Origin: J088 sp003695505 [NCBI: Candidatus Dadabacteria bacterium]
Lineage (GTDB): Bacteria > J088
Direction: 5' to 3'
Assembly (NCBI GenBank): GCA_003695505.1
Contig: RFIY01000195.1
Coordinates: 1 to 8,842, forward strand
DNA length: 8,842 bases
Of the stretch, positions 1 through 6,994 are shown piece after piece (the stretch's first letter is position 1; the number at the start of each line of letters is the position of its first letter). Both the position numbers and the translations under genes were made by a program. Below the pieces are notes generated by a model. That model did not search any database. It was not told the origin of the DNA and was given only the letters and a program-made list of their open reading frames with translations.

Positions 1-915
1 CCGCATCACATTGCGCGGGATCTTGAGCGGCGTTCCCGGAATCCGCAGCGAGCGCACGAACAGCACGAAAAAGAAGTGGGAATGTTGCTCGTCCTGCGGG
101 ATGATGCTGACGAAATGTTTGATGTAATCGTCGGTATTGGACCAGTTGTACGGGTACTGGTAACCGAGTCGCATCAGACCCGACTGCGTCTGATCCCGAT
201 CCATGAACGCATCGAGCAATTTGCCGGCGCCGATTTCGGCCTGATAGGCGATCTCGACCAGGTCGCGATCCGGGTGTTCATCACACTGGACCAGCTTCGG
301 TTTGCTGAACGGCTGGTACTTGCGGTGCAGGTACCCGTGCGTGTAATCGCTGACGTTCTCGAGCACCATCGAGTGATGCGCGACCCAGTTGTACTCCTTC
401 GGCACCATCGTCCAGCCTGACCCCGGTTCGGCCTCGGGCAGTTGCGGCAGCGGCACGCTGTCGGCCAGCTCCGGATCGCCGGGAAAGATCCAGATCAGCC
501 CATAGCGCTCGACGACCGGCACACGCGGGACCCGGAATTTCGGATCGTCGTGCCCGAACGTCTCATGCCAGATGTCGATGACCTCGCCGTCCCGATTGTA
601 CTTCCAGCCGTGGTACTGGCAGACCAGGTCGCAACCATCGACGAGGCCCGATTCGCTCAGCCGCACCTGGCGGTGCGCGCAGCGGTTCTCCATCGCACCG
701 ACCCGGCCATCCTTGCCGCGATAGAGCACGATCGAGCGCTTCCAGAAAACGATCTCGCGGATCTCACCACGTTTCAGGTCGCGCGAAATCGCGGCGATGT
801 ACCAGTAGTTGGGATCAAGACCCGCCGCACGGACCTTGTGATAGCGCGTTTTCGCCTCCGCAAACGAAGGCGGTGCGGGCAACCGCGGCTCGACAGGGAT
901 CGTTGCTTTGACCAT
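1..915 (-). CDS. Rieske non-heme iron oxygenase, alpha subunit (partial, C-terminus off the left edge)
   Basis: Terminal oxygenase component that hydroxylates or demethylates a ring substrate using O2 and electrons from a reductase not present here. The 305 visible residues, read from ATG at 915-913, contain the Rieske [2Fe-2S] motif C79-x-H81-x17-C99-x2-H102 followed by GWKY. They also contain the start of the catalytic mononuclear iron site: E186-N-x2-D190-x2-H193-x3-H197, where D190 would be the bridging aspartate and the two histidines iron ligands. The third, acidic ligand should lie in the missing C-terminal part. The start is supported by GGAG at 926-923, 7 bases upstream. The gene is divergent from a TetR-type regulator gene across an AT-rich gap with a perfect palindrome, so repression by that regulator is likely. 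Oddity: the two histidines are separated by 3 residues, where naphthalene dioxygenase-type enzymes have 4. The family is certain; the substrate is unknown (sterol, aromatic and amine substrates are all possible). Confidence 0.93.
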   Translation of the reverse strand, partial: MVKATIPVEPRLPAPPSFAEAKTRYHKVRAAGLDPNYWYIAAISRDLKRGEIREIVFWKRSIVLYRGKDGRVGAMENRCAHRQVRLSESGLVDGCDLVCQYHGWKYNRDGEVIDIWHETFGHDDPKFRVPRVPVVERYGLIWIFPGDPELADSVPLPQLPEAEPGSGWTMVPKEYNWVAHHSMVLENVSDYTHGYLHRKYQPFSKPKLVQCDEHPDRDLVEIAYQAEIGAGKLLDAFMDRDQTQSGLMRLGYQYPYNWSNTDDYIKHFVSIIPQDEQHSHFFFVLFVRSLRIPGTPLKIPRNVMR

Positions 916-947
916 GGGGGCGCTCCAGGACAAGGGATCGTTCGAAA

Positions 948-967
948 TGGAAAATTGCAATTTTCCA
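948..967. promoter_or_regulatory. Perfect 20-bp palindrome, probable TetR-family operator
   Basis: The half-site TGGAAAATTG is followed directly by its exact reverse complement CAATTTTCCA, with no spacer and no mismatch. It lies in the 75-base gap between the divergent oxygenase and regulator genes, 23 bases before the regulator's ATG. Size, symmetry and position are typical of operators bound by TetR-family dimers that control themselves and a divergent target. Binding by this particular regulator is inference. The site would cover the likely transcription start of the oxygenase and the -35 region of the regulator gene. Confidence 0.75.
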
Positions 968-981
968 AAAGATAATATAAA
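955..981 (+). promoter_or_regulatory. Candidate promoter of the TetR-family regulator gene
   Basis: TTGCAA at 955-960, in the centre of the palindrome, can serve as -35. TATAAA at 976-981 (5 of 6) or GATAAT at 971-976 (5 of 6) can serve as -10. Transcription would start within about 10 bases of the ATG at 991, giving a nearly leaderless mRNA, which fits the absence of a ribosome binding site there. A repressor on the palindrome would cover the -35, giving autorepression. The spacer of 15 for TTGCAA/TATAAA is short, so the exact boxes are uncertain. Confidence 0.4.
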
Positions 982-997
982 TTACTTGCTATGTCAA
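969..997 (-). promoter_or_regulatory. Candidate promoter of the Rieske oxygenase gene
   Basis: Read on the minus strand, a perfect TTGACA (-35) occupies 997-992, overlapping the regulator's first codons. It is followed after 17 bases by TATCTT (-10, 4 of 6 consensus) at 974-969. Transcription would begin near 962, inside the palindrome at 948-967, so a bound repressor would block it. The -35 match and the spacer are good; the -10 is mediocre, and nearby TATTAT at 977-972 is an alternative with a shorter spacer. Confidence 0.45.
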
Positions 998-1773
998 ACG
1001 CATCGACCCAGCCCCCCTCAAAACGAGATCGCCTGCGCAGCGCGCGGGACGAGATGTACCGCGACCTGATCATCGCCGCCGGCGAGGAAACGTTTGCGGC
1101 GCACGGTTTCGACGACACGAAGATGCAGGACATCGCCAGTGCGGCTGGCGTGTCGCTGAAGACCGTCTACAAGTACTTCCCCGGCAAGCAGGAACTCTAT
1201 CAGGCGATCAAGACACGGCGTGGCGGCGAACTGGTCGCCGAGGTCGAGCGGGCGGTCGGACGCCTCGCCGGCGACTTCCCGCGCGAGCCGCTGCGGGTCA
1301 TGTTGACCGGCATGGAAACGCATCTGCGCTTCTTCATGAGTCACCCCGGCTATCTGCAGATCATCCTGCGCGAAGGCTACATCTGGTTCGAGCAACGCGC
1401 GCGGCAGGACCCCGGCCAGGAAGAGCTCTGGCAGCGCGGCCGCCAGGTGATGGAGGCACTGTTCGCCTTTGGCATCGAAACCGGCCTGTTCGTGCCCCAG
1501 CCCGTCGACGCGATGGTCGCGCATCTGATCTCGCTGCAACAGACGCGGCTCGCGACCTGGGTCGCCGCCGGCATGGAAGATGGCCCGGAAACTGTCATCG
1601 CCGCGGCGCAGGCCGAGTTCGTCCGCTTCTTCTGCGTGCCGGCGCTGGCGTCGGCCGTGCTGTCTCCGGATGGCAGTCGCGTCATCGACGCGGTCACGCG
1701 GCCGACCGAATTGCTCAGCCGCTACCGCAAACAGCCACCGGAACTGCACGTCCCCGTACCCACCCCATCCTGA
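991..1773 (+). CDS. TetR/AcrR family transcriptional regulator
   Basis: A 260-residue dimeric DNA-binding repressor. The N-terminal TetR helix-turn-helix domain spans about residues 23-70: helix 1 around YRDLIIAAGEETFAAHGF, then TKMQDIASAAGVSLKTVYKYFPGKQELY with the typical recognition helix and the YxYF-x2-K end motif. The remaining roughly 180 residues are a helical ligand-binding and dimerisation domain, which is not diagnostic for a ligand. A charged 22-residue tail precedes helix 1. No Shine-Dalgarno is visible before ATG 991; ATG 1054 (residue 22) is a possible alternative with weak GGGA upstream, but the basic tail and the likely leaderless transcript favour 991. It is followed after 31 bases by a dehydrogenase gene on the same strand, so the two are probably co-transcribed. 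It most likely controls itself, the dehydrogenase and the divergent oxygenase through the palindrome at 948-967. Confidence 0.92.
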   Translation: MSNASTQPPSKRDRLRSARDEMYRDLIIAAGEETFAAHGFDDTKMQDIASAAGVSLKTVYKYFPGKQELYQAIKTRRGGELVAEVERAVGRLAGDFPREPLRVMLTGMETHLRFFMSHPGYLQIILREGYIWFEQRARQDPGQEELWQRGRQVMEALFAFGIETGLFVPQPVDAMVAHLISLQQTRLATWVAAGMEDGPETVIAAAQAEFVRFFCVPALASAVLSPDGSRVIDAVTRPTELLSRYRKQPPELHVPVPTPS

Positions 1774-2859: not shown

Positions 2860-3702
2860 TCAGGCCGCACCGCCCGCTGCCGCGGGATGGATCAGCAGAC
2901 GAATGATCGACCCGACCGCCCACAACGTCGCCCACAGGACCGTCTGGGTCGGCCCGACCGGCCAGTCCAGTACATAGGCCAGAAAAAATCCGCCGGCCGC
3001 TCCAGTAACCGCGACCACAACCGTCACGGCCGGCAACACCGCGAAACGGCGAACAAGCTGCGCCGCTGCACCCGATGCGACGACCGCAGCGGCAAAGGTT
3101 GGCAGCAAACCGACAGTACTCGCTGAAAGCGCGATCAACGCGCCCCCCAGCACATCTCCGGCGACCCGCAGCATGCGCACCGGCAGGCCGCGCACCCGCG
3201 CGGCCTCGGGGAAAAAATACACGGCCGCGAGCCCCCGGCTCCAGAACGTAAAGCCACACAGTCCAATGGCGCCCAGAAGAATCCCGACAACGCCCTCTGC
3301 AGTGGAAACAAGTACTGCCGACCCCATCAATGCGGAATTGATATCGTGCGCCTCGTGGGGCAACTGCTGGATGCCGATCACCGTCAACCCGGTCATGCCC
3401 GCGTACAGCAACGCGGTCAACCAGGCATCACTGGCCGCGTCGGCGCGACGTCGGCCAAAGACATAGCCGAGGACCGCTCCCGCGACAATGGCCGCGAACT
3501 GGGGATGCACGAGCTGTTCGAGGCCAAGCGCGAACGTCGCCACGACGGCCAGTGTTCCCCCCTGCGCCACGGTCAGATTGACAAACGCCATGCCGCGATA
3601 CGCGTAGAACACGCCCATCGCGGCCATCCCGGCGAGCAGGATCGTGCTGACGAGCGCCGGAAACCAGAAAAACTGCAGAAAGGTCTGGATCATGTCGCTC
3701 AT
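2860..3702 (-). CDS. znuB: Zinc/manganese ABC transporter permease (ABC-3 family)
   Basis: Inner-membrane channel subunit of a metal importer, 280 residues, almost wholly hydrophobic with about eight or nine membrane segments (for example around 11-33, 48-64, 68-83, 95-113, 126-150, 180-210 and 220-243). Family features visible are GVFYAYRGMAFVNLTVAQGGTL (30-51) and the cytoplasmic coupling segment FFPEAARVRGLPVRML (163-178), followed by the long TVGLLPTFAAAVV helix. The frame is open 14 codons further upstream, but ATG 3702-3700 is chosen because it overlaps the ATPase stop as ATGA and has a GGAGG-type site just before it. His116 and His119 in a predicted loop could touch metal. The gene is last in the five-gene operon and ends 26 bases from the convergent dehydrogenase gene, with no clear terminator. 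Zinc is favoured over manganese because of the barrel protein in the operon. Confidence 0.9.
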   Translation of the reverse strand: MSDMIQTFLQFFWFPALVSTILLAGMAAMGVFYAYRGMAFVNLTVAQGGTLAVVATFALGLEQLVHPQFAAIVAGAVLGYVFGRRRADAASDAWLTALLYAGMTGLTVIGIQQLPHEAHDINSALMGSAVLVSTAEGVVGILLGAIGLCGFTFWSRGLAAVYFFPEAARVRGLPVRMLRVAGDVLGGALIALSASTVGLLPTFAAAVVASGAAAQLVRRFAVLPAVTVVVAVTGAAGGFFLAYVLDWPVGPTQTVLWATLWAVGSIIRLLIHPAAAGGAA

Positions 3703-4403
3703 AGCGCCCCCTCCTCGGCAAACATCGCCTCCGCGGCTGGCCACACGGATTCGGTGGAGCCCGCGATGACCTGTCCGGCATGGCGATTCAACAGCAGCAG
3801 ATTCGACGCGAATGCCCGTGCAGATGTCAGAAAATGGGTAATCATGACGACGGTCGTCCGATGCCGTCGGGCATATTCAGCCAGCAGGCGCATCACCGCG
3901 GCTTCACCGCGCCGATCCAGCGCGCTTGTCGGCTCGTCCAGAAACAGGCAGTCGGGCGCGGCGACGAGTGCCCCCGCCAGGGCAGCACGCTGATATTCCC
4001 CGCCGCTGAGTTTTTCGAGGGGATGATCCAGCAGGCCCTCCAGGGCGAACTCCGCACTGATGGCTTCGATGCGCTCGCGCACGTCGCGCCGGAGGAAAGG
4101 ACGCCGCCAGCTATGGTTGCGGTCGCACTGCAATTGCAGGAAGTCGCGCGTCGTCATCGGCATTCTTCCGGTCCGGTACCGCCCCTGCGGCAGGTAGCTG
4201 TTGCGAACGTGTGCCGGTTGGAGATACCTCCCCGAAACCGGCGGAATCAACCCGAGCAGGGTCTGCATCAGCGTCGACTTCCCGGCGCCATTTGGCCCGA
4301 GAATCGCCCAGATCTCGCCCTCCATGACCTCAAGATCGAGTGGAGGAAGCAGCGGCGTGCCGCCGTAGCCGACGACGAGTGCCTGCGCGGCCAGTGCGCT
4401 CAC
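3699..4403 (-). CDS. znuC: Zinc/manganese ABC transporter ATP-binding protein
   Basis: Cytoplasmic ATPase that powers the permease, 234 residues. All nucleotide-binding motifs are intact: Walker A GPNGAGKST (36-44), Q-loop Q73, signature LSGGE (132-136), Walker B CLFLDE (152-157), D-loop SALD (160-163) and switch H190. Translation starts at GTG 4403-4401, which overlaps the TGA of the binding-protein gene as GTGA; the 3' end overlaps the permease gene as ATGA. Both 4-base overlaps imply coupled translation and balanced subunit production. Length and motifs match ZnuC/MntB-type ATPases. There is no histidine-rich C-terminal extension such as occurs in E. coli ZnuC. Assignment to the metal ABC family rests on the neighbours as much as on the sequence. 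Confidence 0.93.
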   Translation of the reverse strand: MSALAAQALVVGYGGTPLLPPLDLEVMEGEIWAILGPNGAGKSTLMQTLLGLIPPVSGRYLQPAHVRNSYLPQGRYRTGRMPMTTRDFLQLQCDRNHSWRRPFLRRDVRERIEAISAEFALEGLLDHPLEKLSGGEYQRAALAGALVAAPDCLFLDEPTSALDRRGEAAVMRLLAEYARRHRTTVVMITHFLTSARAFASNLLLLNRHAGQVIAGSTESVWPAAEAMFAEEGAL

Positions 4404-5308
4404 GGTGCCGCTTCCTCGATCGAACGCATCAGCGCCTCGATCCGCTCCAGGTAACTTTGCCCGGGGCTGGCTCCGCCGCTGATGACGACCAGTGGAATGT
4501 CGAGTTTGTCGGCCAGCAGACGCGTCAGCTTGTCGGGATAATACGCCTCCTGAAGGATCATGGCGGCGGGATTGCTGTCTTGCAGATGGACAAGTTCGAC
4601 GAGCCGTTTCGGACTGGGCGGAATGCCTGGCTTGGGTTCAACGGTGGCCGTCTGCGTCATGCCGAGCCAGTCTTCGAGATAGCTCAGCGATTGATGATAG
4701 GCCAGCACGCTGAGATGCTTCTGGCGCAGGTTTGCGGCTCGTGCCAGCAATGGTCTGGCCGCATCGATCAGTTGCGCCAGCCTTTGTGAAAATAAGGTCT
4801 TCTGCTGAGGCGCGAGCTGGCTCAGACGTTCAGCAAGGCGACGCGCGACGGTCAGTCCCTGCCGCAGGTCCGTGAGGTAATGTGGATTGCCGAGCGGATG
4901 CACGTCTCCCTGGCTACGATCAGCCATGCCGGCCTCAAGAACCGCGATCCCCTCGGAAGCGTCGAAGTATGCCGGATTGCCACGGATCAACGCGGGATTC
5001 CGTGCTGCACGGATCAGCGATGGCAACCAGCCGATCTCAAGGTCGAGCCCATTGAGTACGAGCAGGTCGGCACGATGCAGTTCGACTGCATAACTCGGCC
5101 GGGGATCGACGAAATGTGGATCCTCGTCCGGGGATGCGAGCACGGTCACCCTGACTGCGTCACCGCCGATATCGCGCACCAGCGCACCCAGATCGGGCAA
5201 CGTGGCGACCACTTGCAGCGGCGCCGCGGCGGCACGCGTTGCAACCGAACAAAGGAACACAATCAGTGCAATGAAAACAGGAAAGCTTCGGGTATGCATG
5301 GTCATCAT
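4400..5308 (-). CDS. znuA: Periplasmic zinc/manganese-binding protein of an ABC importer (cluster A-I)
   Basis: A 302-residue substrate-binding lipoprotein-like or free periplasmic protein of the ZnuA/TroA fold. A signal peptide (about residues 8-29, hydrophobic core FPVFIALIVFLC, cut near AAAA-P) is followed by LQVVATLPDLGALVRDIGGD, typical of the family start. Likely metal ligands are H65 (DPHFVDPRPS), H143 (NPHYLTDL; H137 is next to it) and H205 (AYHQSLSYL); E253 is a possible further contact. At the C-terminal position where many relatives carry an aspartate ligand the protein reads ISGGASPGQSY, so a three-histidine site as in ZnuA is more likely than a manganese-type site. The histidine-rich loop of many ZnuA proteins is absent. 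Three in-frame ATGs occur (5308, 5305, 5299); AGGA lies 8 bases before the third, so 299 residues is possible. It follows the barrel gene by 9 bases. Confidence 0.92.
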   Translation of the reverse strand: MMTMHTRSFPVFIALIVFLCSVATRAAAAPLQVVATLPDLGALVRDIGGDAVRVTVLASPDEDPHFVDPRPSYAVELHRADLLVLNGLDLEIGWLPSLIRAARNPALIRGNPAYFDASEGIAVLEAGMADRSQGDVHPLGNPHYLTDLRQGLTVARRLAERLSQLAPQQKTLFSQRLAQLIDAARPLLARAANLRQKHLSVLAYHQSLSYLEDWLGMTQTATVEPKPGIPPSPKRLVELVHLQDSNPAAMILQEAYYPDKLTRLLADKLDIPLVVISGGASPGQSYLERIEALMRSIEEAAP

Positions 5309-5317
5309 CCTGACGGC

Positions 5318-6517
5318 TCAGAAGGAATGGGCGCCGTGGGCACCGGCAACGAGTTCAAATCCGAGATCCACCGTCCAGCCTTCATGGCCTGCCGGTGAAT
5401 GTGATTCGAACCCCTCGATTCTGAATTTGGAGAACTCGCTCGGCCGGAATGCGATCGCGAGGCCCGAACGCTGTGTCAACGCTTCGCCCTGGCTACGCTG
5501 ATGCAGCCATTCGTGGCGCAAGGATCCCAGCCAGCGTTGGGCAAAATGAATATCGACCAGTTCATAACCGGCGATATCCAGTTTGCCGTTGGCCGGCGTC
5601 TGCGCGCGACGCCCGGCAGCTTCGACGGTCAGCGCCAGGTAGCGGCCCTCCTCGTTGTTCTTGCGCGAGCGCCATTTTGCGTACAGATCCGCGCCCAACC
5701 ATTGCAGGCGGGCAAACGACGGCCCACTCTGCGCCGCCCAGACGCCGACGTTACCAGCCAGCGCATCCATCGGGGTAAACGACGCCTCGTTACGAAGCAG
5801 GTAGAACTGCCTGCGGAACCATCCTCCGGGCCCGGTCGGCGCCGTCGTCGGTGCCAGGCCGAGCTCGTCGGCGAGTTCATCGGCGGCAGCCTGGTCCGCG
5901 GCGACAGCCTGCAGGGTGTCGTAGAACGGCAACGGTGTGAGCCACGACAGTTCAACCCCCAGGCTGCTGAGACTCTCCGCACCAAGCAGGCCCGAGCGCA
6001 ACAACGATGCCTTGCCAAATGACCAGCTATGCAAATGCGTGGCATTCTCGCGCCCGGCGGCCCATTTGACCTTGCCGAAACGGCTCTGCAGCCCCGCTGG
6101 CAGGGCGCGTGTCGTCCCATACGCCTCTTCGATCTCGAACCCTTCAAGCGTGAACACCATAGCCATGAAATATTCAAGATAGGGATCGACCGGACTTTGC
6201 ACCGACAGCTCGATCTGCTGCAGAGTGAATCCGTTCTTGACGGGGTCGTGGTCGGTCGAGAACTGATCAACGACCGGGTTCCCGTCACCGACGGAAACCG
6301 CGGCATCAGCAATGAAACTGATCGCGGGATTCATCAGATTCAGCGCGGTGCTGCGGAATCCCGAAGATGAATCGGATGGTTGTTCAGGCGCACTGCTGAC
6401 TGCCGCGGAAAAGGCTTCGAGAAGCTCTTCATCCGTCTCCGCCCACGCAGCCGCAGGCCCCGCAAGGAGCAGCGCCATGGCAAGAACCGGCCACGGCCTT
6501 GAACACATATTCAACAT
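5318..6517 (-). CDS. Outer-membrane beta-barrel protein associated with zinc uptake
   Basis: A 399-residue exported protein, probably an outer-membrane pore or receptor. The signal peptide covers residues 1-26 (core VLAMALLLAGPAAA, cut at AWA-ET), followed by an acidic and serine-rich stretch to about 53. The body matches, from memory, the uncharacterised barrel family commonly encoded beside Zn/Mn ABC importers: GFTLQQIELSVQSPVDPYLEYF (97-118), EIEEAYGTTRALPAGLQSRFGKVKW (residues 128-152), then N159-A-T-H161-L-H163-S-W and LSWLTPLPFYDTL (190-202). It ends GAHGAHSF with a terminal phenylalanine, as outer-membrane barrels often do. It has no TonB-dependent receptor plug motif that I can see, and is shorter than those receptors. 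ATG 6517 is chosen over an upstream in-frame ATG because the signal peptide starts there and GGA lies about 7 bases upstream. Function in metal passage is inference from context. Confidence 0.8.
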   Translation of the reverse strand: MLNMCSRPWPVLAMALLLAGPAAAWAETDEELLEAFSAAVSSAPEQPSDSSSGFRSTALNLMNPAISFIADAAVSVGDGNPVVDQFSTDHDPVKNGFTLQQIELSVQSPVDPYLEYFMAMVFTLEGFEIEEAYGTTRALPAGLQSRFGKVKWAAGRENATHLHSWSFGKASLLRSGLLGAESLSSLGVELSWLTPLPFYDTLQAVAADQAAADELADELGLAPTTAPTGPGGWFRRQFYLLRNEASFTPMDALAGNVGVWAAQSGPSFARLQWLGADLYAKWRSRKNNEEGRYLALTVEAAGRRAQTPANGKLDIAGYELVDIHFAQRWLGSLRHEWLHQRSQGEALTQRSGLAIAFRPSEFSKFRIEGFESHSPAGHEGWTVDLGFELVAGAHGAHSF

Positions 6518-6537
6518 GGAAACATCCAGTATTTGAT

Positions 6538-6556
6538 GGAACCCTGTCAGGGTTCC
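6538..6556 (-). promoter_or_regulatory. Inverted repeat in the intergenic leader of the barrel gene
   Basis: GGAACCCTG, one base, then CAGGGTTCC: a 9-bp perfect inverted repeat around a single central base, located between the His/Cys-rich gene and the barrel gene, 21 bases before the latter's start. As RNA it would fold with about 7 pairs and a 5-base loop. It is not followed by a U-run, so it is a poor terminator. It could be an operator for a metal regulator, an mRNA-processing or stabilising hairpin, or a partial attenuator. Confidence 0.45.
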
Positions 6557-6610
6557 GCTTTCGCAACAGGTTCCCGATGGCGCACGCCACCGGGACATCG
6601 ACAAGGACTG

Positions 6611-6994
6611 TCAGATCGTCGCGTAAAGTGGGGGCGCGCGGGAGGGAATTCCCGGCAGAGACGCGCGCGCAACGACCGGCGAGGGGGCCTGCTGCGGCGC
6701 CCGGACGACAGCGAGCCGAGCCGGCACAAAGCTGGATGGTGGCGTGGCGGCGCCGTGCGCCGCCACTGAACACTGGATACAGTTCTGGGCGTGGCGATGA
6801 TGGTGGTGCCCCGGAATCGGGCACGGCCGGTCATCTCCGGCTGTCCATTCGTGGGGCGTCTCGGCGTACGCTACGCCTTCGCTGATGGCCTGGAGTACGT
6901 GCGTCCCTGAAACGACGGGCGCGCCCAGCCAGAAACTCAACAGCAGCGCCAGTCCGGCTCTGAGCCGACCAGTTGAGGCAACGAGGCGCATCAT
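6611..6994 (-). CDS. Small exported His/Cys-rich protein, DUF2946-like
   Basis: A 127-residue protein of unknown function, first gene of the metal operon. A hydrophobic N-terminal segment (about 12-29, ALALLLSFWLG region) acts as signal peptide or membrane anchor. The middle holds a compact candidate metal site: C58-P, then P-G-H63-H-H-H-R-H68, C72-I-Q-C75 and H80. The rest is proline- and alanine-rich and low in structure. The layout (short, exported, a histidine run before a CxxC pair) resembles DUF2946-type proteins that often sit near metal transport genes; this is by resemblance, without a search. It begins with two ATG codons (6994 and 6991), with AAGGA about 12 bases upstream, somewhat far. 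The gap to the barrel gene is 93 bases. A role in binding periplasmic zinc or copper, or in sensing it, is plausible but unproven. Confidence 0.7.
   Translation of the reverse strand: MMRLVASTGRLRAGLALLLSFWLGAPVVSGTHVLQAISEGVAYAETPHEWTAGDDRPCPIPGHHHHRHAQNCIQCSVAAHGAATPPSSFVPARLAVVRAPQQAPSPVVARASLPGIPSRAPPLYATI

Follow-up and report, generated by a model that had tools for sequence, protein, structure and literature searches.

A 20-bp palindrome between a Rieske oxygenase gene and a TetR-family gene as a probable operator of bacterial sterol-biosynthesis genes

A perfect palindrome lies between a divergently oriented Rieske oxygenase gene and a TetR-family regulator gene. Is it an operator, and if so, which genes does it serve? 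The window, that is, the whole stretch of 8,842 nucleotides that was analysed, is the entire contig C258 of genome G000, a metagenome-assembled genome (MAG) of 2.83 Mb in 395 contigs with a completeness of 84.5%. From the sequence comparisons presented here, we think that the palindrome is, with a probability of around three in four, the operator of a sterol-biosynthesis regulon, a reading whose support comes from this one MAG.

The palindrome and the genes that flank it

The Rieske gene starts with an ATG at 915 on the reverse strand and the TetR gene with an ATG at 991 on the forward strand, which leaves a gap of 75 bases (916-990) with a GC content of 40%, against 63% for the window contig. 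Inside the gap, at 948-967, lies the candidate operator TGGAAAATTGCAATTTTCCA, whose arms (948-957 and 958-967) are 100% complementary without any spacer. Its edges are at 32 and 23 nt from the start codons, the TetR start codon being the one at 23 nt. The coordinates, the gap length and the mismatch-free, spacer-free 20-bp palindrome of the original prediction were all correct.

Such a palindrome might be the functionless product of chance in an AT-rich gap, as around 10 perfect 20-bp palindromes are expected in an order-2 Markov genome of the size of G000. Nevertheless, the probability of finding one in a given gap of 75 bp was only about 2e-4 in the order-2 Markov simulation and, as described below, its arms recur at functionally linked promoters, so we consider a chance origin most improbable. 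By itself the palindrome is notable, not decisive, and it is the recurrence at other promoters that carries the case. A terminator was considered as well, but none was found.

Regarding the flanking genes, the Rieske oxygenase (1-915, reverse strand, PF00355) is cut by the contig end and resembles SdmA, a 4-methylsterol oxygenase. For the fragment of 305 aa the best NCBIfam model by far was NF052579 (SdmA, 4beta-methylsterol monooxygenase), with 279 bits under a cut-off of 600, and the next family reached 43 bits. The same model gave no more than 364-421 bits for the longer Rieske frames of three other genomes (G406, G497 and G403), which are neighbours of SDR or sterol genes. The best solved relative of the window protein was dicamba O-demethylase (72 bits), and its matches on plasmids (653 records) were all below 60% identity, the best one at around 33%.

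The TetR-family regulator (991-1773, forward strand, 260 aa) matches PF00440 with 58.3 bits (cut-off 24), but no NCBIfam model reaches its cut-off for this protein, and its C-terminal domain gives 23.1 bits with TetR_C_41, under the cut-off of 27. The structure model from the single sequence was all-helical, with a mean pLDDT of 52.

The next gene on this strand, at a distance of 31 bases from the TetR gene, encodes an NSDHL-like dehydrogenase of the 3beta-HSD/epimerase family (1805-2833, PF01073, 191 bits). Its best solved relative was the decarboxylating sterol-4-alpha-carboxylate 3-dehydrogenase 6jkg, which is human NSDHL, with 138.5 bits, the next one reaching 69.4. Neither of the NCBIfam models OleD (272 bits) and SdmB (60 bits) reached its cut-off, OleD being the better of the two. 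Since there is an SdmA-like Rieske protein on one side and a sterol-4-carboxylate dehydrogenase-like protein on the other, the gap separates two enzymes that are, by homology, of the C-4 demethylation type. Farther along the window, at 2860-6994 on the reverse strand, we observed genes of a Zn/Mn-type ABC transporter (permease, ATPase and ZnuA-like binding protein), and upstream of them those of a 400-aa protein and a DUF2946 protein.

Recurrence of the arms in the genome

The complete 20-mer TGGAAAATTGCAATTTTCCA was found in G000 only at its own site when up to 3 mismatches were allowed. Nevertheless, the gap on contig C33 between a TetR paralogue gene and a methyltransferase gene contains TGGAAAACGAGCGTTTTTCA, which shares its arms. 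We set the search pattern TGGAAAA-N6-TTTTCCA from the window and C33 sites, after the C33 site had been seen, and because of this the independent finds are those of contigs C176, without mismatches, and C218, where a site with 1 mismatch is accompanied by a tandem one. There were four places in G000 with at most 1 mismatch: the window and C176:4259-4278 without mismatches, and C33:7585-7604 and C218:355-374 with one. The second C218 site (376-395, 2 mismatches) follows 21 bp on, which is around two helical turns. In a 2.83-Mb genome simulated with order-2 Markov models, built from 79 kb or 121 kb of G000, the expected numbers were 0.007 places at 0 mismatches and 0.14 at up to 1 mismatch (0.175 in a smaller run).

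The fact that the whole 20-mer is unique in G000 would fit a purely local autoregulatory operator of the Rieske/TetR pair, the other sites being coincidences or belonging to another factor, and among TetR-family regulators it is common for a palindrome to separate the regulator gene from a divergent target. However, four places were found where 0.14 were expected, and all four sites lie 22-44 nt upstream of the start codons of sterol-type genes, and therefore a purely local role appears quite unlikely to us.

When up to 3 mismatches were allowed, the pattern had 72 real places against 36 simulated ones, but the reversed control had 50 against 24, so that the true chance is around twice the simulated one; intergenic DNA is also richer in AT. 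At this level there is little to distinguish the pattern from its background, and the argument depends on the best sites and their positions. The five places with 2 mismatches comprise the tandem partner on C218, three inside long ORFs and one (on C173) that lies between converging ORFs and is covered by a weak frame of 99 codons. As for the 63 places with 3 mismatches, 41 were listed and 26 of these examined, and 25 of these 26 fall in a GC3-rich frame, which is a loose test, the one on C180 being outside.

The ten arms of the five sites have T in 9, G in 10, G in 9, A in 10, A in 9, A in 10 and A in 9 cases along the seven positions of the pattern. Position 8, which is outside the search pattern, is a pyrimidine in all ten, and after it no preference is seen. 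The perfect TGGAAAA is present in seven arms, whereas two have one change and one, the outer arm of the second C218 site, has two. On the basis of these counts, together with the pyrimidine at position 8, the conserved unit consists of two 8-bp arms with a 4-bp spacer, TGGAAAAY-N4-RTTTTCCA. The original prediction had put its stress on the central TTGCAA, but the central bases are precisely those that vary between sites, and this is why a literal search with the 20-mer finds only its own site. Its idea that the operator would lead to the regulon and to the substrate fared better, as the arms do lead to sterol-type genes, and with them to sterols as the likely class of substrate, although the fixed 20-mer does not. 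The four contigs that carry sites have a GC content of 0.62-0.65 and mutual tetranucleotide correlations of 0.45-0.65, against 0.12-0.54 with the loci of five other genomes.

The C176 site is 23 nt before the ATG of a predicted squalene epoxidase gene. This ORF matches PF08491 (squalene epoxidase, 75 bits) and PF00494 (squalene synthase, 154 bits) in one frame, and its end is overlapped by an oxidosqualene cyclase (OSC) gene. The OSC reaches 536 bits with TIGR01787, over the cut-off, and 633 with TIGR03463, under the cut-off of 851; among its solved relatives, lanosterol synthase gave 446 bits against 183 for hopene cyclase. The squalene synthase, the OSC (with TIGR03463) and the Rieske protein stay under the strictest NCBIfam cut-offs. 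G000 thus encodes both a squalene epoxidase and an oxidosqualene cyclase, as de novo sterol synthesis needs. We also observed that the epoxidase and synthase parts form a single frame of 789 aa (L024:4302-6671), apparently a fusion, and that a frame after the cyclase gene (L024:8479-9309) reads by eye as a PadR-type regulator.

The C33 site is 22 nt from the TetR start and 44 nt from the chosen ATG of the methyltransferase gene, which also has an earlier in-frame ATG that overlaps the site. The methyltransferase matches Sterol_MT_C (PF08498) with 76 bits. Among the NCBIfam models it scored best with that of sarcosine/dimethylglycine N-methyltransferase (70 bits, cut-off 550), and among solved structures MitM was the best relative. 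The same contig carries gyrB.

Finally, the two C218 sites are 31 and 10 nt before a gene of the FA_hydroxylase family (PF04116, 87 bits). This family includes sterol desaturases, but it is a broad one and the C218 product may act on substrates other than sterols.

Promoters, regulators and the proposed circuit

The candidate Rieske promoter (969-997, reverse strand) consists of TTGACA (997-992), 17 nt and TATCTT (974-969), and it is predicted from a consensus match in 10 of 12 positions. Its TTGACA falls in codons 1-3 of the TetR gene and the predicted start point is near 962, within the candidate operator; the consensus match confirmed the original prediction in both respects. The TTGCAA that had been proposed as the -35 of the TetR gene is indeed the centre of the palindrome (955-960), but the only -10 that it finds as a partner is TAAATT, and the pair has 8 of 12 matches. 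The best candidate TetR promoter (948-976, forward strand) has TGGAAA (948-953), 17 nt and GATAAT (971-976), a consensus match of 9 of 12, and its -35 is the left operator arm itself.

The other sites had similar arrangements, again by consensus matching. The candidate promoter of C176 (TTGACA-18-TACGCT) stops 3 nt ahead of the site, like the window Rieske promoter. At C218 the -10 of TTGACC-17-TAATAT is inside the first site, and at C33 the left arm forms the -35 of the candidate methyltransferase promoter (TGGAAA-17-TAGCAT), like in the window TetR promoter. Because the sites overlap the predicted start point, the -10 or the -35, these positions suggest repression. The proposal that a single dimer shuts both divergent genes of the window is geometrically plausible.

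Regarding the proteins that may read the arms, at E <= 1e-15 the window TetR had three weaker relatives in G000, the nearest of which is the C33 paralogue (35% identical), whose gene faces the methyltransferase gene across the gap with the site. The helix region of the window protein, VSLKTVYKYF (residues 54-63, 1150-1179, forward strand, by alignment with its relatives), is taken as the recognition helix, following TetR-family structures. It is alike in type to VSVKTVYDFY of C33, whereas the other two relatives differ. We infer that both the window and the C33 TetR read the arms, since their recognition helices agree with each other and differ from those of the other relatives. The original prediction had named the window protein as the reader, and it is still a candidate, but it may share this role with a paralogue of similar recognition helix that adjoins another copy of the site. 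The relative on contig C102 had no inverted repeat of at least 7 bp in the first 200 bases, and its P450/TetR locus had no site with up to 3 mismatches among the places listed (50 of the 72). At that locus (L027:172-2255) the TetR gene is directly before a P450 gene; CYP120 and CYP51 are among the best solved relatives of its product.

Two proteins and few sites also allow for two separate circuits, where the window TetR would read the sites with an inner T (the window and both C218 sites) and the C33 paralogue those with an inner C (C33 and C176), the common arms being left from an ancestral duplication of regulator and site. Position 8 does split cleanly, with T in the six arms of the window and C218 and C in the four arms of C33 and C176, and the paralogues are only 35% identical; nevertheless, with very few sites the split could be due to chance, and the recognition helices are of the same type. 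We hold this arrangement as a tentative possibility, and under it the palindrome is still an operator of sterol genes.

The regulator could also act as an activator, or need a co-repressing end product, like the FasR-type lipid regulators. FasR, whose model name describes it as a transcriptional activator, was the best NCBIfam model for the window (42 bits) and C33 (50 bits) proteins and the second best for that of C102 (47 bits), although far under the cut-off of 330, and the match of the window and C33 proteins covers mostly the HTH. As the sites overlap the predicted start point, the -10 or the -35, which is a place for repression, we find activation or co-repression unlikely.

In the preferred reading, that of a repressor acting on a sterol-biosynthesis regulon, a TetR dimer (of the window protein, the C33 paralogue or both) would bind the arms and, at each promoter, cover the start point or one of the two boxes (-10 or -35). 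It would thereby repress the epoxidation and cyclisation of squalene, methylation at C-24 and demethylation at C-4, along with the desaturase-type gene and the synthesis of the TetR itself, until a sterol or triterpene intermediate releases the protein. Binding and repression are inferred from the sites and their positions, whereas the ligand is a guess from the regulon content. In the window, a single site would control the two halves of C-4 demethylation, with the Rieske gene on one side and the TetR-dehydrogenase operon on the other. Two of the four promoters are the divergent gaps of paralogous TetR genes. With a defined operator and two candidate regulators, the sensed molecule, the timing of sterol making and further genes of the pathway become testable, and a repressor that a sterol can release, if true, would be a useful biosensor part.

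Known systems and other genomes

The closest known systems are KstR and KstR2 of mycobacteria, TetR-type repressors of cholesterol breakdown (PMC1995591, PMC3068626). According to the available parts of these papers, the likeness includes palindromic operators spread over a steroid pathway and often placed in divergent gaps, those of the regulators' own genes among them, as well as two TetR-type repressors in one pathway and a gap with two copies of the motif. However, they control breakdown, whereas the G000 regulon would consist of synthesis genes, and their 14-bp operators, TnnAACnnGTTnnA and AnCAAGnnCTTGnT, are unlike TGGAAAAY-N4-RTTTTCCA. The window site TGGAAAATTGCAATTTTCCA does not match the KstR operator TnnAACnnGTTnnA as given in PMC1995591, and the KstR model gave 26.2 bits for the window TetR and about 26 for that of C33, under a cut-off of 280.

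Many enzymes of bacterial sterol synthesis are known. In Methylococcus, the C-4 demethylation genes sdmA and sdmB and the bst transporter operon have been described (PMC10942540, PMC10202945). The window resembles them in having a Rieske oxygenase and a reductase that are putatively for C-4 demethylation, but its reductase is nearer to NSDHL/OleD than to SdmB, and it has a TetR gene and a candidate operator between the enzyme genes, whereas the available parts of those papers mention no dedicated regulator. Sterol gene clusters are likewise known at the MAG level, both from uncultured bacteria that carry sterol methyltransferases (PMC10070321) and from the symbionts of Ircinia sponges (PMC9531527). 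Their genes for OSC, SMT and further sterol enzymes lie together or apart, but no operators or pathway transcription factors are reported in the accessible parts of those papers. Nor is a pathway transcription factor mentioned in the parts at hand of PMC10070321, PMC4919349, PMC9531527, PMC10202945, PMC10942540 and PMC13277303. Among the papers listed by our full-text searches, which covered mainly openly accessible ones, none was about such a factor for bacterial sterol synthesis, a silence which is not proof of absence. There is a chance somewhat short of even that G000 has the first transcriptional circuit seen for de novo sterol synthesis in bacteria. In it, a sterol or triterpene intermediate would be the signal by which two TetR paralogues with a shared operator type jointly tune the cyclisation from squalene to sterols, methylation at C-24, demethylation at C-4 and desaturation, as a working counterpart of the sterol-responsive control of eukaryotes.

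Among the 385 other genomes of the spread set, 4 had relatives of the OSC, and relatives of SdmA were found in 3 of 195 genomes from the phylum of one of the OSC-bearing genomes. No OSC was found in eight genomes from the phylum of G230, the genome with the highest full-length GyrB identity to G000, nor in viral contigs. The pairing of operator and TetR was not seen at the SdmA/OSC loci of seven other genomes (eight regions, one of only 4.5 kb, searched by tblastn with the TetR proteins). The only TetR homologue in the eight regions was on L132, around 5 kb from a Rieske gene, and the best site-like words had 3 mismatches (L129:571 and L084:15906). No relative with an orthologous Rieske/TetR gap was found in the genomes searched. 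As for the window TetR, a search of a set of 192 spread genomes gave no homologue at E <= 1e-25 in the 191 besides G000, the collection of genome contigs gave three matches limited to the HTH, and none of the 57 plasmid records matched covered over 80% of the protein.

Two of these genomes favour the sterol reading by gene neighbourhood. The Rieske protein of G406, 50% identical to that of the window, is encoded in a cluster with squalene epoxidase, OSC, squalene synthase and an SdmB-like SDR. G403 has an SdmA-like gene around 7 kb from an OSC gene, and adjoining this OSC gene is a relative of the C33 methyltransferase (53% identical). In the G406 cluster we also observed two apparent fusions: a frame of 1176 aa with squalene epoxidase and oxidosqualene cyclase parts (L129:4346-7876) and one of 1556 aa with squalene synthase and SdmB-like reductase parts (L129:10022-14692).

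G000 itself may belong to a poorly sampled lineage. Its GyrB (L026:16-2439) is at most around 60% identical over the full length among the best 20 of 386 spread genomes, with partial matches up to 66%; no supported sister lineage appeared by GyrB among these 20, and the 16S of G000 was not found. Contig C202 (L030) has the gene order FtsH, FolP, DisA/CdaA-like, CdaR-like and GlmM, named by eye, which resembles that of delta-proteobacteria-like lineages.
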